Assembly (NCBI GenBank): GCA_030770425.1 | Contig: JASJFT010000002.1 | Span: 496,001-560,000, forward strand | Source: Darksidea phi | Lineage: Eukaryota; Ascomycota; Dothideomycetes; Pleosporales; Lentitheciaceae | Length of the DNA stretch: 64,000 bases | Direction: 5' to 3' | Part shown: one piece after another, positions 14,211 through 55,779 of the stretch | How positions within the stretch are numbered: position 1 is the first letter of the stretch | Layout: every line of letters begins with the position of its first letter | The notes under the pieces: model-generated | What the model was told of the DNA's origin: nothing | Seen by the model: the letters and a program-made list of their open reading frames with translations, nothing else | Databases searched by the model: none | Program-made: the position numbers and the translations under genes

Positions 14211-16305
14211 ATGTTCAAGAAGAAGCCAAACGTAGCTTTACCACCACCGCCAGAACGAAGCATATACATGCTGATACGGAACAGATCAAGCCCCTTAGTC
14301 CCCTCAAGTCCTCGGACCGGCGCAGGACCGCCGACCACATCATCGCCGCCTTCGGTTTGGAGGTGCCAGTGGACCCAAACGCGCCCCACGAGGACAAGGC
14401 TGCTTCAACGGCAGGCCTTACGGCGCTGAGGAAGTCGCTGTTGCCAGAGAATGCCCTCTCGGCACGCTTCACCACAACTGCAGGGCCGGACCTGAAGCAG
14501 GTCTCGGGCACCGTCTACGTAGGTAGCCATGAGGGCACTGGCAACGAGCCGAGGATCCTGTGGGCCAAGGTTGGGGAGACCATGTATCCCACGGGTTAGC
14601 GATAGCATCCGATAGCTGCCAAAACTCTGCTAACACGCCCCAGTGTACACGCTCTGGCACAACCCCAACATCGTGCCCCTCCTCTACACTCCCTCATTCG
14701 TCGTCGAGAAGCTGCAAGGCGGCGCGGACCTCATGACACCTGGCCTGCAGCGCGGTCCCCCGTTCCCAAAGAAGGCCACCAAGGGCGCCGTCGTCGCAAT
14801 CGCGAGCCTCGAGACCCCCTCAGTCCCTATGGCGGTCGGCACATGCGCCATCGACGTGAGTTCACTGGAGAAGGTCCAAGGCATGAAGGGACACGCGGTG
14901 CAAACATTTCATTGGGCCGGGGACGAGCTCTGGTCATGGAGCTCTTCATCCAAGCCCGGCATGGATGCACCGGGATATCTTGAAGGGTGGGATGACGAGA
15001 AGCACGACGATGATGCGGCACTGCCTTCTCAGGTAGCCGCAGTTGATCTCGGAGACGCGGACGGTGGAGACATTGCGCTGAACCCAGACCCCACCGAACG
15101 ATCAGCCGCTGAGAAAGCGCAGGAAGTCGTGGGAGAAGATCCGCCTTCGCTCAAGGACTCTTTTGAGCTGGTAGATGACAAGGAACTGTCTCAGAAAGGT
15201 AGGGTTCGCGCCAGATATGCAACATTCCTGCTGACGAAGGGCAGAGATTGACGATGCGTTCCGTGATGCTTTTCTCTATGGGATACGTTACCATATGGAT
15301 CATAACAAAGACCACCCCTCATTTGGCCTCGATTTCCCTCTCTCGCAATCCAAAGTCATGTCTCTCCTCGTACAGCCTTTTCTTCCTACCTACACACCCG
15401 CCCGAACCGCCTTACTCCAGATCAAGAAGACGAGCTGGAAGAACATCAAGAGGTTCATGAAGTACATGGATAAACAGCAGGTTGTAAAGTGCAAAGACCG
15501 TGATGGCAACGAGGTGGTCATATTGGACATTGACTTCAAAGATCGCCATGTGCAGGATTTCGTCCCATACCGTCTGCCAAAAAAGGACGCACCTCTAGGG
15601 GCAAGCGCAAACGGGAAGCCTACCGCTCCGCTGTCAGCCGAATCCGCTGTTGGTCAGAAGCTCAAACTCGTCTCCCTGCTCCGGCCGAAGGAGAAACTTG
15701 CACCTATTCTTAATAGCGCAAAAGCCGACCCTCGTGGCCTCTATACGCCTGCGGAACTCAAGCAGATCCTCATGACATATATAGAGGCTGAAGACCTTGT
15801 GTCACCCAAGAATAAACGCCTCATCAACATCAACCCTCAAATTGCAGACTCCCTCCTTGGATCCTCAGCCGCAGACAATGCGGCGCTTGCGTCAGGAACA
15901 ATATCCCGCGATGCTCTCGCCGAACGTATGGTCGCTACCACCTCTCCCTTCCACTCCATCCTCCGTGACGACGCCGACGCCGCAGACTCGAAGCCGAAAG
16001 CTGGAGCACCGCCCAAGATCCAAATCGTACTGGAGACGCGTAGTGGCAACAAGACAGTCACCAAGGTCAGTGGTGTTGAGCCTTACTATATTGCACCTCA
16101 GCCGCTTGCGGATGAGCTAAGGAAGACCTGTGCAGGAAGTACGAGCGTGGACCGGTTGCAGGGTAGCAGCCCGAAGAATCCTGTCATGGAGGTTATGGTA
16201 CAAGGACCGCAAAAAGATGCAATTCTCAAGGCGTTGGAGAAAAGGGGTGTGCATAGAAATTGGGTGGAGGTTGTGGACAAGACGAAGGGCAAAAAGAAAG
16301 GTTAA
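14211..16305 (+). CDS. TMA64: eIF2D-like translation factor (TMA64/ligatin)
   Basis: Four exons: 14211-14231 (21 nt, MFKKKPN), 14285-14594, 14644-15198 and 15245-16305; introns 53, 49 and 46 bp. The product has 648 residues. Conserved order: N-terminal DUF1947-like part (IKPLSPLKSSDRRRTADHII), PUA domain with VSGTVYVGS, YPTVYTLW and QGGADLMTPGL, a winged-helix/SWIB-MDM2 middle (IDDAFRDAF, PAELKQILMTYIEAEDLV) and a C-terminal SUI1/eIF1-like domain (IQIVLETRSGNKTVTKVSG to AILKALEKRGVHRNWVEV). eIF2D ejects deacylated tRNA and mRNA from post-termination 40S subunits and can place initiator tRNA without GTP. Length fits the family. Every splice was set by restoring conserved sequence across it. 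Confidence 0.95.
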
Positions 16306-21266: not shown

Positions 21267-24200
21267 ATGTTGACACTCAAAGGTCAAGCAACACGTATCT
21301 GTACAATCGATGGTCCAAGCCCTTTTACTCCAAGTCCCTCAACGAAAATGAAAGCCTGGAGATCCGCGACAACAGAAGTTCACGAACGTGAACCGAAACT
21401 TCCCTCGTGGTCGAAAAAGTCCCTTTTTATCAAAACGAAGCCTAGCGAAGAATGGCATCAACAGATCGACTTCACAGCTGGCGTTAATCGACCTTCTGAA
21501 CAAAATTTCCAGTGGAATCTGGTCAAGCGACATACAGATCACTACATCAAGAAGAAAGGGAAGATCACCCAGGCTGAGATCGACTCAAAGCTCGCGTCGC
21601 TAATTGAGCAGCATGAAGCGCGAGATGTAGCAATCGCAGCTTGCGCGCATGCCATGTCGCCTAAGGCAGTCCGCGCTCTACTCAACGTCGAACTTAATGT
21701 TGCACCGACTACGTTCTGTGGATTGGAAATGTATTTGCAATCCCTCATCGCGGCGCATCACTGTAGCCCAACATCTATCACCCAACTTGAAGCACGATGG
21801 GCACGGCAAATGCTTCCTTACATTGTGCATGGCGCTGGTGCCGCGGGGAAATACCTGGAAGGCATCACGGTCATGCTTCGCACAACAAATACCCCAAGCA
21901 TGAACGTCCTTCCCGATTTTGCGATTCTCACTCTCCGAGCCTTCACGACCTTTGCGACACAACTAGAAGGAATGAAGCTTCGGTGTCAGTGGGTCGCAGC
22001 CTATGGGGCTGTGGCTTGGATGACTACCCTCGCACAAAGCACACCTGCCGCGACTCCATCTGGTAATCTTATGCCGGAACATCTGATGGACGTTGAGTTT
22101 CCAATATGGAGGATTTGGGCAAACTGGAAACCCAACATTTACCGGATTATGCAGTTTGGTAATCTCGATGCGGGGAAAAGGGGTGTGCTGGTTGATATAA
22201 TGGCACTCGAGGGCCCAGACTTTATCACCGGGACACAAAATACGTTGATGAATGGGATTGTGAAGCGGTATGCTCCCGGAAAACCGTTTGTGATGTTCAG
22301 AAGCTTGGTAATTGAGGTGGAGAAGTGCACTAGGGAAGAGTTGAAGGGGATGTTGGAAAAGACAGGAGCGTCATTGGAGAGGGCATTGAAGGGCGGTGAT
22401 GGGCCCTTCAAGCTCTTTGTCCATCTTGCTGTCAAAAGGCCGATCACCCAAGAAGGACTACAGTTGCTTGAAGCTGTTGGCAGGATCCAAGATACGCCGA
22501 AATTTCACGTTCATAACGCTACCATCGAGATCTACGCAGCACAACGCAGCATTGGGGGAAGGCATATAGTCATGCTCCAGCACCTGATATGCGCTCTTGA
22601 TGACGCACAGGGAGGTGAGCTGAGAAAGGTAATCTTACGGCCATGGCTCGTGCAAGGCATCGAAAAGTGCATTGAGGAATGTCGGGCTGCGCTTAGGGCA
22701 CACATCGACTGCGAACTCGCCTGGACACATCTCGTATTGGAGTTACATACATTCTGCACTATCCTCAAGGGCTCACATAGTTGCCTACCATTGTTGAATC
22801 ACGAGATTCAGAGAGAGCTGGATTTCCTACCGCCAGTCGACACGTTGAGGGCTCTGCTCGATATTTACGCAGCAACTGGAGCCAAGAAAGCCAATGGCAC
22901 CCATATCGGAGCGAACGTGTTGAAACATTCGATAACTGCATGGTGTATCGATCGGTTTGTGGAACGTGGTTCGCTCAGCCATGCTTCACAGAGAACAGTT
23001 GACGCAATCGTGCAGGTATGGAACGGCACAACGACTAGAAATGAGGCAGATACTAAGCGTCGGTCGCTCGCTCTGTTGGCCTCTACCAGTGCTAGTACGG
23101 ATTTCGTTCTTCGCGTCCGATGTCTGGACCAAATCATACAACTGCCGGACGACTTCGTCATGAGCCTCCTTGCTCTTCTGCAAGGCTTTGGAGCTAATCC
23201 AGAACTCAGCTGCATCAAGTTCACTAGGCTCCTCACCAACGCCGATGTTGATGTAACGCTCTGCTGGAAACAAATGCTCTACAATATGATTGACAGCCTA
23301 CAACCAACGAAAATTCTGGACTACATGTTCAAACACTTCAAAGCCCATCAGTTCTTCGAATTCATGCTCGATCTCAACAGTCTCTTCGCAGACGTCGCTG
23401 CGAACCCCAAGGCTTCGCCGCCATTTATCTTGCGGTCGCATTTGCACCTATGGGTGCAGCAACTTTCGAGTTTTCTACCAGAAATTACGAGACTGGAGTA
23501 TGCGTTGGGCAATCGCTCTCATGCTGTGAAGACCATATTAAGGGGTGGCGAGGGGTTGGGAGTTGAGCATCTTTTGAAGATTGTAGAGGCATTGAAAACG
23601 GCCTCTGAGCGACCAGTGGAAAAACTCATGCAAAACACTGTGGGGAGGTTATCGAAGGAGAACAAGAATGTATCTGAGATTGCTGATTTCGTGGGGAGGC
23701 TCCTGTGTGTGACGCCACAAGGGCTAGCGGCCTGCGAACGAATATGGGATGCAAAGCACGACGTCGTGCATGTACCCGGCGTCGAGGAACCACAATATTC
23801 GAAGCGCTCCGGCTTGACCAATTGGAAGCCCGCACTCGCTAATCAGAGCATCATTTCTACTTCAGTAACGGAAGTTATAATAGCGGGTTGGCTACAAGAC
23901 GATTATATGCTGGAAACAGACAAGACCGCCATCATCGCTCTCGCCTTCATCCTCAACCTCGAAGTCTACCTTGATAGTATTCCAAAAGGGAAGCTCTCCG
24001 AAGCGGCGACATACTTCGAAGAACAGGAAGCCAAGATGATCGAGGAAGCACAGCGTTTAGAGGGTTTGGCGAAGGCACTGAAGGCGAGAGATCCGCTTGG
24101 CACGAAACTTTTGCTAGAGCAATTGGGCATTGAGGATGTGAGCCCGCTAGATGAGGAACTTGAAGGATTGCCTGTTGTAGTTGCGGGTGCAGTAGAGAAG

Positions 24201-25460
24201 TTTAGCGACAACGGGGTGGAAGTCAGCTTTCCTCTGGCAGAGTGGACTAGTTTACAGCGGAGTGGGATGGGAATTGGCGAGGCGAAGACGTTGTTGGTCC
24301 GGCTGTACTTAGATCACTTCGGTGATATGCCGACGTCGTTTTGTGTACACCTTGACACGGATGCTCAAGAGGCTGGTGTGGAGCACACACCGTGGACGTG
24401 TCTAACAAACTCGAAGGCGCCTGAGCACGTCTACTGCTCGGGCAGAGCGACACCCCTTACGTGGCAGATGAGCCGGATTTTATATCGCCATCTGATGACT
24501 TCTGGATCCACTATCGCGGGCGTACATCAGTCTGTGAGGAACAGGTTGAGCGACCTAGCTCACTCCTGTACCATCTGCGGCCGCCCACACAATGCGCGCA
24601 ACACGCAGCTCCGCCGCTCGACACCCTGCAGTCTCAGCTCCTGTACACGAATATGGAACACCTTACCCCTCGACATCCTTGTTCCGGAGTTCCGCACCGA
24701 CATTTTCGCCGTTGATATGCTCCTCACAACCGTTTACGTAGCCGCCATGAGCGCCCGCCCCGAACTTCTCCCTAGCTGCCCCATAACGAATCCCCCCACC
24801 GTAATGGCGATTCTGAACGCCCTTCCTCCTCTCAAGTCACTGCAGCATGTTCCCGACATCTCCGCCTCCCTCCGTACCTACCATCAAGACGCCGAAAAGC
24901 TGCTCATCTGGGCGGTCACGCATTTCAGAGGCTTCATAGTCACCGCAACAGGTATCTGCAAAGTCCCCAGTATGCCGGCAGGAACGCACCAGTTCCTCCT
25001 GGCGAATGCCGCTCCTTCACTCGAAGCCTCCTTCGCTGCAAAGTTATCAAAGCATAACCCTAAGACGACGATATTATTCCACGGCACATCGCTCGATCGC
25101 CTCCCCTCAATCCTCACCCAAGGCCTTCGCATACACAGCGGTACGAGTCTGCAGCGCACCGGTGCCGCGCATGGAAAGGGCATATACATGGCTGAGGAGC
25201 CTGTCACGTCATTTTCTTACTCTCCGTCGGCGGTCAGCTGGCGGAATAGCGGGCTAAATGGTATGAGATTGTTGCTGGGCTGCGAGGTTGCGGGGGTTGG
25301 CAGGAGCGTGAGCCCAGGGATTCATGTGTTGCAGGACGAGAAGAGCGTGCTGGTGAGGTATGTTTTTCTATTGGGGAGCGGTTCTTATGCCCCAAGTGCT
25401 AATCATATCGTGCCTGCGATGGGAAGTGCGATTAGTGCGTTAAGGAGTGGGGCGGTGTAA
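21267..25460 (+). CDS. Large protein with C-terminal PARP6/8/16-type ADP-ribosyltransferase domain
   Basis: Uninterrupted frame of 1397 residues. The last 130 residues form a PARP catalytic fold: FHGTS with His1272, then LPSILTQGLRIHSGT, GAAHGKGIYMAEEP with Tyr1307, FSYS, and a final VLVRYVFLL strand. The canonical catalytic Glu is replaced by a hydrophobic/aromatic position, so it should be a mono-ADP-ribosyltransferase. Upstream is the helical linker typical of PARP6/8/16 (LLIWAVTHFRGFIV, PSMPAGTHQFLLANAAP). Before that is a four-Cys cluster beginning CTICG at residue 1101 and ending CSLSSC, as in PARP6/8. The remaining roughly 1000 residues are mostly helical and match nothing I know. Human PARP16 is an ER stress regulator; the fungal role is open. 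An in-frame start at MKAWRS (21348) is possible. Confidence 0.85.
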   Translation: MLTLKGQATRICTIDGPSPFTPSPSTKMKAWRSATTEVHEREPKLPSWSKKSLFIKTKPSEEWHQQIDFTAGVNRPSEQNFQWNLVKRHTDHYIKKKGKITQAEIDSKLASLIEQHEARDVAIAACAHAMSPKAVRALLNVELNVAPTTFCGLEMYLQSLIAAHHCSPTSITQLEARWARQMLPYIVHGAGAAGKYLEGITVMLRTTNTPSMNVLPDFAILTLRAFTTFATQLEGMKLRCQWVAAYGAVAWMTTLAQSTPAATPSGNLMPEHLMDVEFPIWRIWANWKPNIYRIMQFGNLDAGKRGVLVDIMALEGPDFITGTQNTLMNGIVKRYAPGKPFVMFRSLVIEVEKCTREELKGMLEKTGASLERALKGGDGPFKLFVHLAVKRPITQEGLQLLEAVGRIQDTPKFHVHNATIEIYAAQRSIGGRHIVMLQHLICALDDAQGGELRKVILRPWLVQGIEKCIEECRAALRAHIDCELAWTHLVLELHTFCTILKGSHSCLPLLNHEIQRELDFLPPVDTLRALLDIYAATGAKKANGTHIGANVLKHSITAWCIDRFVERGSLSHASQRTVDAIVQVWNGTTTRNEADTKRRSLALLASTSASTDFVLRVRCLDQIIQLPDDFVMSLLALLQGFGANPELSCIKFTRLLTNADVDVTLCWKQMLYNMIDSLQPTKILDYMFKHFKAHQFFEFMLDLNSLFADVAANPKASPPFILRSHLHLWVQQLSSFLPEITRLEYALGNRSHAVKTILRGGEGLGVEHLLKIVEALKTASERPVEKLMQNTVGRLSKENKNVSEIADFVGRLLCVTPQGLAACERIWDAKHDVVHVPGVEEPQYSKRSGLTNWKPALANQSIISTSVTEVIIAGWLQDDYMLETDKTAIIALAFILNLEVYLDSIPKGKLSEAATYFEEQEAKMIEEAQRLEGLAKALKARDPLGTKLLLEQLGIEDVSPLDEELEGLPVVVAGAVEKFSDNGVEVSFPLAEWTSLQRSGMGIGEAKTLLVRLYLDHFGDMPTSFCVHLDTDAQEAGVEHTPWTCLTNSKAPEHVYCSGRATPLTWQMSRILYRHLMTSGSTIAGVHQSVRNRLSDLAHSCTICGRPHNARNTQLRRSTPCSLSSCTRIWNTLPLDILVPEFRTDIFAVDMLLTTVYVAAMSARPELLPSCPITNPPTVMAILNALPPLKSLQHVPDISASLRTYHQDAEKLLIWAVTHFRGFIVTATGICKVPSMPAGTHQFLLANAAPSLEASFAAKLSKHNPKTTILFHGTSLDRLPSILTQGLRIHSGTSLQRTGAAHGKGIYMAEEPVTSFSYSPSAVSWRNSGLNGMRLLLGCEVAGVGRSVSPGIHVLQDEKSVLVRYVFLLGSGSYAPSANHIVPAMGSAISALRSGAV

Positions 25461-52577: not shown

Positions 52578-52607
52578 CCCTACCCTACCCTACCCTACCC
52601 TGCCCTG
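52578..52607 (+). repeat. (CCCTA)4(CCCTG)2 pentamer tandem
   Basis: Four perfect CCCTA units followed by two CCCTG units, about 130 bp ahead of the TATA element of the short-peptide locus. The pentamer differs from the fungal telomere hexamer CCCTAA. Confidence 0.85.
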
Positions 52608-52732
52608 GCCATACGGCGCCCTCGACGGCAGGGTCCAGGGTAAAGGGTCCATGATGACTAGATGCCTGATCTGAGCGTTCGCCGAACGAACCACTACCCG
52701 TTCTCTGTGTGCGGTATCGAAGGGGAGGCGGA

Positions 52733-52738
52733 TATAAA
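52733..52738 (+). promoter_or_regulatory. TATA element upstream of the short-peptide locus
   Basis: TATAAA in GCGGATATAAAGAT. The only ATG between here and 53028 starts at 52740, 2 nt after the box, so it would lie upstream of a start site placed about 30 bp downstream. Confidence 0.5.
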
Positions 52739-52818
52739 GATGCCTGGCAGGGCTCCACGGCTTAGGCAGTCAACATCAAGTCATTCGGCCTACGCCTCTT
52801 CTACCTAATACTGTTTCA

Positions 52819-52824
52819 TATAAA
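52819..52824 (+). promoter_or_regulatory. Second TATA element of the short-peptide locus
   Basis: TATAAA in TTCATATAAATCT, followed by a CT/CA-rich leader with no ATG until 53028. Either TATA element would give a transcript whose first ATG is that of short ORF 1. Confidence 0.45.
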
Positions 52825-53027
52825 TCTTTGAGTCAGTCGTTCCGTCAGCCATCCATCCACTTCGCCACCTTTCGATCCCTTTCGACTCTACAACCACTAC
52901 ATATCGTTGCTCGCTTGATAACATCGCCACATATCCCAACTCAAAAGACCTATAACCTACGCATCCTTGACCACGATCCACCACGATCCGAATCGTCGTC
53001 GCCATACTCGCCATCAACACCGTATCA

Positions 53028-53051
53028 ATGGGCCGCGGCGGATACAACTAA
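53028..53051 (+). CDS. Short ORF 1, heptapeptide MGRGGYN
   Basis: Eight codons including TAA. First ATG of the presumed transcript after an ATG-free, CA/CT-rich leader of over 200 nt. It encodes exactly the same peptide as short ORF 2, 138 bp downstream (end to start), using different codons: Gly2 GGC here and GGA there, Arg3 CGC and CGA, Gly4 GGC and GGA, Gly5 GGA and GGC. Tyr, Asn and the TAA stop are the same. The start context is moderate (T at -3, G at +4), which would let some ribosomes scan on. I do not recognise the peptide. It may be a free signalling or regulatory peptide, or an upstream ORF that stalls ribosomes; at seven residues it cannot be an independently folded protein. Confidence 0.6.
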   Translation: MGRGGYN

Positions 53052-53189
53052 GCGTTCGACCATTTACACAACAACAAACCAAATTCTTACCGTCCGAAAC
53101 ACCCCTCGTGGATCACCACACACTCCTCTTCGACGTACAAGGTCAAAACACATCTTACCAACCATATACCCTCGACCAAATCACACACG

Positions 53190-53213
53190 ATGGGACGAGG
53201 AGGCTACAACTAA
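53190..53213 (+). CDS. Short ORF 2, heptapeptide MGRGGYN
   Basis: Second ATG of the presumed transcript; no other ATG lies between short ORF 1 and this one. Same peptide and same TAA stop as short ORF 1, with four third-position differences and no amino-acid change. The start context is better (A at -3, G at +4). Sequence around the two ORFs is otherwise dissimilar, so this is not a recent duplication: only the coding 24-mer has been kept. Confidence 0.6.
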   Translation: MGRGGYN

Positions 53214-53267
53214 GGCGCCTGCGGAATCCACTGCCGCTCGCAACGACATCCAAGCCTACAATCCATT

Positions 53268-53357
53268 ATGGAACCACGAACACGCCATCAAACAACCATG
53301 CGCCCTCACCATCCCACGAAAACGCTTCGCAAGAAGCGCGTCGAACGATGGCGCTAG
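53268..53357 (+). CDS. Short ORF 3, basic 29-residue peptide
   Basis: Third ATG of the presumed transcript (A at -3, G at +4), 54 bp after short ORF 2. The peptide starts MEPRTRHQTTM, has an internal Met11, and ends KTLRKKRVERWR. It is rich in Arg/Lys/His and Thr with a single Trp near the C-terminus, and could bind nucleic acid or membranes. It might be the main product of the locus with the two heptapeptides acting as upstream ORFs, or a third cistron. Not recognised. Confidence 0.45.
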   Translation: MEPRTRHQTTMRPHHPTKTLRKKRVERWR

Positions 53358-53939
53358 CAGTACAACCACCCTCAGCACACTACATCATATCTCTTTAGAT
53401 CTCTCTGGGCCTTGGCCATGTACAGTATTTCCTTGTTTCCTTGTACTTGTAGCATAGCGTTGCATCTGTCGGGTTCTGTGTGTCATTACTGGTTTTCGTT
53501 GATAGCATTTGAGCGAAGGAGTCTCGGGACATCGGGTAACGGTAACGGAAACGGAAACGGTTTACGGGCTATGGGTTATGGGTTCACGGGTTACGGAAGG
53601 GATATCCAGGGTCATGGCATGGTACGGCGTTCTCATAGATCGGATCTTGCTCCGCGCTGAGCGTGGGCGGATTTCCTGTGTGCTTTAGCGTTTATGGCGT
53701 TCTTCTTAGGCTTCTGAATCTAGCTCTTTTTCCTGCTCCATGTTATGGCGCTTCACCTCTTTTCCCCAGCTCAGTCCACTGGCCATATAACCGGTTTGAA
53801 TTCGTTGCGCTGGCAGTGTCACTCCACACTCCCTGTTTTCTAGCTGTACCTGGCGGTGTTTCCACGCAATCATATGACACCAACGAATTCAAAGTCGGGG
53901 CGTTTTTGCAATGGCTTTCACTCGGTAGATCTCACTGAT
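53358..53939. other. Presumed 3' untranslated region and convergent spacer
   Basis: Downstream of short ORF 3 and converging on MSS1. Contains a GGTAAC/GGAAAC hexamer tandem and an 82-codon frame with a Gly-Asn run that arises from that tandem. No recognised gene. Confidence 0.45.
53535..53558 (+). repeat. (GGTAAC)2(GGAAAC)2 hexamer tandem
   Basis: Four hexamers in a row followed by looser GGTTTACGG and GGGTTATGG copies to about 53596. Confidence 0.8.
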
Positions 53940-55779
53940 CTACTTTCCCACGCAGAACCTAAGATGCAATCAAAGTCAGCGTCATCCCCGCGAGTTGCGA
54001 ATACCACCATTAAAGTAGGTCGAGATTCTCTCAACGAGATGCGAGGTGCAAAGTTGGAATCGAATGACCCATCTGACTGAGACACTCCTGCAGCGCCTCA
54101 GATTAGGCGTCGTCCAATATAGCGGCGCAGTCGGGCGACCACCTGGCAAAAACGTGCAGAATCAAAGGACTGAAGGAAACGTACTTTTCAAACACAACTC
54201 CTAGCACCTCCTCCACGTCACCGCTTTCTCCGCGTCCGGTAATCCTGGCAAGTGTTTCTGCGGCCAGGCGGAGGGACTCAGCGGCTACAACAACGTCAAC
54301 CTCATTCGAGTCTTCAATGACGCCAAAGGTATCATCAACTTGACGAGAGGGGCTTCGGGTGGCTCCCAAAAACGCATCAAGATGCGAGAGACACTCTGAG
54401 AGCAGCACACGCTGTCGTTCAGTTGCGCCCAATGATTCTTGCCAGATTGATGGGTCCGGTTCAGAGTCCGGTACCAGGGCAGTGGTCATGTCTCTGAAGG
54501 TTTGGAGGAGGCCGTCGAGGAAGGTCTTGATATTGCTATCTTTGCATGAGATGAAGAATATGCGCTCGGCAGGAATCGCTAGAACAGACTGCATCTTCTC
54601 CTTCCAGCTGTTCAGTGATGGGGTGGCACTGAGAACTTGATCGATCTTGTTGATAGCGACAACGACGTTGATGCCTAACTGTACACATTGCTGTGCTGTT
54701 TCTGTGACTTCGGGATCCATCTCGGTTGTGACGTCCTGGACTAGGATGAGGACGTCTGACTCGAGGGCGCGTTGTTTTGCGCGCTTGATGCCTTCTTGCT
54801 CGACAGCGCCGACGACATCGGCGCCGACAATGCCAGCCTTACGCAAGCCAGCCATGTCTCCAATCTTGACAAGCCATCCTCCCAGATCCAAGCCGACTTC
54901 GACAACGTCTCTGGTGGTGCCCGCTTCCTGCGAAACGATGGCGGCGTCACGGCCGACGATGCGATTGAGGAGGCTGCTTTTCCCGGCATTAGGTGCACCA
55001 AGGAGTGCTACACTAATGCCGCTCCGCAGAAGCTCGCCTCGGACTGCGTTGGCCATATGGGCGTCGATGTGAGAGCGTAGGTTCGCGACTTGGTCGGCGA
55101 CAGATGCGCAAAGAACTGCCGGGGGCTGATCGAAGTGCTGGTCCTCGGAGAAGTCAATCAGGGCTTCCAGCTCGCCACGAGCTTGCAGCAGGAGGTGGCG
55201 CCAGTGCTCATATCGTACAGCGAGCGAGGACGTTGTACCGCGCACGGAAAGTCTGCGCTGTTGCTCAGTGGTGGCAGCAAGCGTCTCGCCCAACGACTCG
55301 ATCTGTGGCAGGTCCATCCGATTATTCGCAAAGGCGCGGCGGGTGAACTCGCCAGGCTCTGCGTATCGGAGCACGCCACACTGGGGGATGGCAGCCAGCA
55401 CGGCGCGGACGATAGCTGGTCCACCGTGGACGTGGAGCTCCAGCACATCTTCACCCGTCACCGTGTTGGGAGCGGGGAAGTGCAGGACGAGGGCACCTGA
55501 ATCGAGCAGCGTCGCGGGGGTCGGGCGGACATGCGGCGCATACAGCTTGCGGAGGGCAGCGTAGCGGGGCTTTGGGAAGGCCGCGGCAGGACACAGGCCG
55601 TGGTAGACCTGTCGACACGCGGGGCCCGAGACGCGGATGACGGCGATGGCACCTTTGCCAGCAGCCGTGGAGAGGGCGTAGATGGTAGGCACATCTGCGT
55701 GCGGGAACGACGCATGGTGGACACGGCGATGACAGACAAGGGATGCAGATGATCGCAGCGATGCGATGGTTGCTCTCAT
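53940..55779 (-). CDS. MSS1: Mitochondrial tRNA modification GTPase MSS1 (MnmE/TrmE)
   Basis: Exons 55779-54185 and 53958-53940, with a 226-bp intron (GTACGT to ATCTTAG), 537 residues. MSS1 with MTO1 installs the carboxymethylaminomethyl group on wobble uridine of mitochondrial tRNAs. The N-terminus is basic and Ser-rich, as for mitochondrial import. The TrmE N-domain follows (IYALSTAAGKGAIAVIRVSG, HGGPAIVRAVL, GEFTRRAFANNRMDL), then the G-domain: GAPNAGKSS (G1), GTTRD (G2), DMAG (G3, usually DTAG) and NKID (G4). The essential C-terminal Cys motif FCVGK lies entirely in the 19-nt last exon. Reading through the intron instead gives 27 unrelated residues and loses that Cys. Head to head with MAK16. 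Confidence 0.93.

Follow-up and report, generated by a model that had tools for sequence, protein, structure and literature searches.

Two seven-codon open reading frames for one heptapeptide in Darksidea phi: a possible fungal counterpart of tal/pri

Two tiny open reading frames (sORFs) with the same predicted product lie beside the 3' end of the MSS1/MnmE gene of Darksidea phi (54103-55779, minus strand), in a stretch without a recognized gene. They were found in a window of 64,000 nucleotides, by which we mean the whole stretch of DNA analysed, taken from 496001-560000 of a 721,593-base contig, and MAK16, on the plus strand, comes next after MSS1. Among the best 120 of 7994 matches to the MSS1 protein, the nearest is a metagenome protein (83%), and the best named ones include proteins of Lentithecium fluviatile (81%) and of Byssothecium circinans (76%), both members of the Pleosporales. 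Searches of the same genome for another copy of the locus, with the MSS1 protein and with 801 bp of DNA as queries, matched the window alone. The features at the locus are collected in Table 1.

Table 1. Positions, within the window, of the twin sORFs and of the features around them
Feature	Position	Strand	Description
TATAAA	52733-52738	+	Candidate core promoter element, some 27 nt before position 52760; hexamer at chance frequency in the window
G-poor, C/A-rich block	52760-53340	+	G 15%, GC skew -0.40; contains both sORFs; putatively transcribed and leader-like
sORF1	53028-53051	+	MGRGGYN-stop; sequence ATGGGCCGCGGCGGATACAACTAA
sORF2	53190-53213	+	MGRGGYN-stop; sequence ATGGGACGAGGAGGCTACAACTAA; four synonymous differences from sORF1
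Possible sORF3	53268-53357	+	Putative; 29 residues, Arg/Lys/His-rich (MEPRTRHQTTMRPHHPTKTLRKKRVERWR); next ATG after sORF2
T/G-richer stretch	53400-53750	+	Follows the G-poor block; putative 3' untranslated region

Two other genes of the window deserve mention. An ORF at 15295-16305 (plus strand), about 37 kb from the sORFs, encodes an eIF2D-like protein with SUI1 and eIF2D winged-helix domains, which we take to be a translation factor of the reinitiation or recycling kind; its presence near the sORFs is probably a coincidence. A 1397-aa ORF at 21267-25460 (plus strand) matches the PARP catalytic domain in its C-terminal part, at residues 1256-1335.

The two sORFs agree in every amino acid and differ only at silent sites. 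A preliminary description of this DNA had claimed that the same heptapeptide, MGRGGYN followed by a stop, is encoded twice, that the two 24-mers differ at four nucleotides, each a synonymous third position, and that the flanking DNA is dissimilar. All of this was confirmed. The mismatches fall at positions 6, 9, 12 and 15 (C/A, C/A, C/A and A/C), all in fourfold-degenerate codons, giving four synonymous and zero nonsynonymous differences between two copies within one genome, while neither the stop nor any twofold site has changed and the final 10 nt (TACAACTAAG) are common to both. The changes are not silent in the overlapping +1 frame, which reads WAAADTTK in one copy and WDEEATTK in the other, as had also been stated. 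The +2 frame, passed over in the preliminary description, reads GPRRIQL versus GTRRLQL; it keeps five of seven residues, so that two of these four changes are silent there as well. The common block is 25 nt long and 84% identical, and it runs from the ATG to one base beyond the stop. Outside it, similarity is at background level, with identities upstream and downstream of 2/10 and 3/10, 8/20 and 7/20, and 13/30 and 11/30 over successively longer flanks. The sORFs lie on one strand with their starts 162 nt apart, leaving 138 nt between the stop of sORF1 and the AUG of sORF2. All eight fourfold sites are A or C, and A+C makes up 64% of the block; drift under local composition can thus account for the codon choice.

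The surroundings of the sORFs are leader-like in composition. Compared with 5228 overlapping oriented windows, the G-poor block has a skew matched or undercut in 0.19% of cases and a G content matched or undercut in 3.8%. At the 400-nt scale and a skew threshold of -0.38, 30 such blocks were counted in 264 kb, the sORF block included; thus, the block is uncommon and not unique. Whether the sORFs are, as claimed, the opening pair of ATGs in a TATA-led transcript depends on where transcription starts. The interval 52760-53028 is indeed without ATG, as it is in 13% of shuffles (probability 0.13), but an ATG at 52740, directly after the TATAAA, would come first and open a 22-residue ORF if transcription began upstream. 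The window contains 15 copies of the hexamer, with 14.1 expected by chance, and the fuller TATAWAWR pattern, with 10 matches against 5.7 expected, has none at the sORF locus. Because TATAAA is at chance frequency and an ATG-free leader arises in 13% of shuffles, both lend the transcript weak support. The start codon of sORF1 sits in a weak context (U at -3), and that of sORF2 has A at -3 and G at +4; the possible third sORF is in the same frame as both heptapeptides. A simple intron scan of 52700-54100, of a kind that introns with other signals would escape, gave five candidates, none of them spanning an sORF. Simple repeats occur on the plus strand on either side: a CCCTA unit repeated four times at 52578-52597, upstream of the putative promoter, and four GGTAAC/GGAAAC units at 53535-53558, followed by GGGTTA-like words to about 53596, in the putative 3' region.

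Neither an ordinary protein-coding gene nor a known structured RNA was recognized at the locus in the following searches. No Pfam domain was detected in the 209-aa or the 143-aa frame. A search of 5.8 billion proteins gave no homologue at E up to 10, either among the 105 candidates for the 209-aa frame or among the 5 for the heptapeptide frame; with so few candidates, both are weak negatives. Codon adaptation was ambiguous. The three frames over 52828-53457 have codon log-odds of -0.21, -0.24 and -0.20, all negative, and codon adaptation of 0.76, 0.76 and 0.79; the yardsticks are a wrong-frame median of 0.74, a median of 0.78 (range 0.72-0.87) for 52 training ORFs and 0.83 for MAK16 in frame. 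The codon measures single out no coding frame over this interval. Within 53028-53354 the heptapeptide frame scores best, with 0.81 against 0.76 and 0.76; it also reaches 0.80 between the sORFs, and local C/A-richness may therefore explain its good adaptation. Between 52000 and 54100 no covariance model of Rfam 15 matched with an E-value of 1 or less, and the RNA folding z-score at the locus is -0.72.

Viral and prokaryote collections were additionally scanned for stray fungal relatives, scans that have no bearing on conservation among fungi. One of them returned no match, and none of the 60 stretches that fitted a pattern in these collections encodes an MSS1 relative. The single prokaryote match to the heptapeptide pattern was discarded, for it ends in TGG, which the pattern admits as TRR and which is not a stop. 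In the viral collection, a pattern loose enough to accept serine as the third residue had three matches, each of them single.

The heptapeptide is rare in the genome, and by simulation a pair of this kind is seldom expected. In the 51.35-Mb assembly (477 contigs), an ATG-started MGRGGYN pattern without the stop has two matches, both at the locus, and a looser version that accepts Arg or Ser as residue three, Phe or Tyr as residue six and anything as residue seven yields the same two and no others. Allowing two mismatches adds one further match, which starts with GTG; in these searches, some common words were skipped and the best candidates alone were scored. We further surveyed real DNA for pairs of identical-peptide sORFs within about 500 nt, using 20 segments of 10 kb from the genome plus the window (264 kb, both strands, or 528 kb of strand). 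This gave 116, 9 and 1 pairs of one, two and three residues, none of four to six, and one of seven, which is the sORF1/sORF2 pair. Dinucleotide shuffles of 52760-53420 produced a pair longer than three residues in 0 of 20000 cases. When 2.09 billion bases were simulated with the local dinucleotide composition, 91, 5 and 1 pairs of four, five and six residues arose. Extrapolated from lengths one to five, with a fall to about 1/18 per residue and with duplications outside the model, about 0.001 pairs of seven residues within 500 nt are expected per genome. Among all 860706 four-substitution variants, 943 (starting from sORF1) or 1057 (from sORF2) keep the peptide and its stop, i.e., 0.11-0.12%. 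Both figures make chance and recent duplication poor explanations.

Of the readings considered, constraint on the heptapeptide fits the sequence best, as judged from two copies in one genome. The proposal of selection on the peptide gains from the synonymous-only differences, from block edges that coincide with start and stop, and from the rarity of the pattern in the genome; the TATA and ATG-free-leader arguments advanced alongside it add little. We consider the observation true and statistically striking, and its interpretation plausible. A transcript made of small ORFs alone (7, 7 and perhaps 29 residues) and selected for the peptide MGRGGYN is, in our judgement, just short of an even prospect. 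The narrower proposal, that of a fungal gene whose product is free MGRGGYN and whose single mRNA holds two ORFs for it, each with its own start and stop, is tentative, a possibility that we hold with some doubt.

Such a gene might work as follows. The transcript would start near 52760, end between about 53400 and 53900 and carry small ORFs alone. Ribosomes would scan the G-poor leader and translate the first seven-codon ORF; some may pass its weak AUG by leaky scanning and reach that of sORF2, or a 40S subunit retained after so short an ORF may reinitiate 138 nt downstream at sORF2. Reinitiation after short uORFs is established in fungi (PMC5972666). Both ORFs would yield the same free heptapeptide, presumably acting in trans, with its amino acids held by selection while the fourfold sites drifted. 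There is a likeness between its GRGG core and arginine-methylated RGG motifs, which we take as no more than a resemblance.

The main rival to a tal/pri-like peptide gene is that the twins act in cis as tandem, peptide-dependent uORFs. Nascent MGRGGYN, or termination on UAAG, would slow ribosomes and so tune a downstream ORF, be it the 29-residue one or an unrecognized spliced one. There is precedent in conserved-peptide uORFs, of which the fungal arginine attenuator is an established case (PMC11550727), and both sORFs stand in a G-poor, leader-like stretch ahead of a third in-frame ATG. On the sORF strand, however, unspliced ORFs starting with ATG do not exceed 80 aa from the block to 54820, whether before MSS1 or running into it on the strand opposite to that gene, and the longest, of 80 aa, is poorly codon-adapted (CAI 0.67, under the minimum of 0.72 for the 52 training ORFs). 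Nor do the cases considered from PMC11550727 include two identical uORF peptides. Overall, we regard cis-acting uORFs as unlikely and yet a serious alternative.

A coincidence that came to notice through the reading of many windows is improbable. The per-genome expectation rises with the number of genomes read, the single simulated six-residue pair already exceeds the extrapolated rate for its length, and neither the TATA element nor the ATG-free leader is better than random. These points are outweighed in our view by the local shuffles, none of which gave a pair longer than three residues, and by the real DNA, in which the counts fall away by three residues, are nil from four to six, and then include a pair of seven.

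Slightly less credible still is a DNA or RNA element bound by a protein, for example a triplet-reading multi-finger zinc protein, with the ORFs incidental. The 25-nt block does occur twice on one strand at a spacing of 162 nt, is rare in the genome and ends in 10 identical nucleotides. Against a binding site stand differences confined to fourfold codon sites and edges at the ATG and one base past the stop, and the locus has neither an RNA family match nor an unusual fold.

An old local duplication whose fourfold sites changed by luck and which has no present function, or constraint exerted through the +2 frame (open for 143 aa), is very improbable. The +2 frame has in its favour the two differences that are silent in it; yet it lacks a Pfam domain and its codon scores are no better than those of other frames. 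Two findings speak against duplication with free drift: only about 0.1% of four-substitution variants would keep the peptide in an unconstrained copy, and the flanks are unrelated, without any trace of a shared origin.

One longer product from 53028 to 53357, made by readthrough of two UAA stops with an MGRGGYN module beside each, is barely credible: the heptapeptide stops are the sole interruptions of that frame and its codon adaptation of 0.81 is within the range of the training ORFs, but all three frames are stop-poor across 53028-53357 and no homologue was found among the five candidates. UAA followed by G is not a leaky stop context known to us.

If the peptide-gene reading is true, the locus would be the first known fungal counterpart of tal/pri, alike by design and not by descent; we know of no earlier one. 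MGRGGYN would then rank with the shortest gene-encoded peptides whose sequence is under selection. Among the open-licence PubMed Central papers searched, none mentions MGRGGYN, and the titles and abstract openings screened name no fungal gene of tiny repeated peptide ORFs. The shortest product given in a survey of fungal sORFs has 11 residues (PMC7394265). Should the pair prove conserved and translated, fungal annotation would be missing peptide genes far under the usual search lengths, and the locus would offer a simple model of one eukaryotic mRNA that makes a tiny peptide more than once.

Known systems resemble the locus to different degrees. Polycistronic mRNAs have been described in Agaricomycetes (PMC4503453) and as Glarea operons with an IGG spacer (PMC10352335), and the 2015 survey reported none in the ascomycete Neurospora crassa (PMC4503453). 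The likeness is more than one ORF per mRNA, a single mRNA being a prediction for MGRGGYN. Those fungal transcripts join genes of ordinary size. The GCN4 and cpc-1 leaders are long and contain several very short ORFs (PMC5972666; PMC5487733). There, unlike anything recognized at the present locus, a transcription factor ORF comes after the uORFs. The peptide sequences of those uORFs are generally not the selected feature. Closer in this respect are conserved-peptide uORFs, in which the amino-acid sequence matters; among them are the arg-2/CPA1 uORF for the arginine attenuator peptide and the PS-stop uORF of HOL1 (PMC11550727), and the MAGDIS uORF, of only six residues (PMC7394265). They share with the twins short ORFs and an apparent constraint on peptide sequence. 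However, they govern a known main ORF in cis, of a kind not found at the MGRGGYN locus, and two identical copies are not a feature of the known cases compared.

The insect gene tal/pri/mlpt (tarsal-less, polished rice, mille-pattes) is the system to which the preliminary description likened the locus. Its transcript was once thought non-coding and encodes several tiny peptides that share a motif; the four Drosophila peptides, of 11 to 32 aa, carry LDPTGQY (PMC8435736; PMC3334604). The resemblance proposed earlier does not extend to the motif, since LDPTG(Q)Y is absent from MGRGGYN, and there is no sign of homology: the locus is not a member of that family, and it belongs to another kingdom with another peptide, in two copies of seven residues known here from DNA alone. 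What holds is the layout. Like tal/pri, the locus has a common peptide or motif in several sORFs on one strand, here MGRGGYN twice at a distance of 162 nt, and it is for this layout that we put forward "a fungal tal/pri" as a hypothesis.
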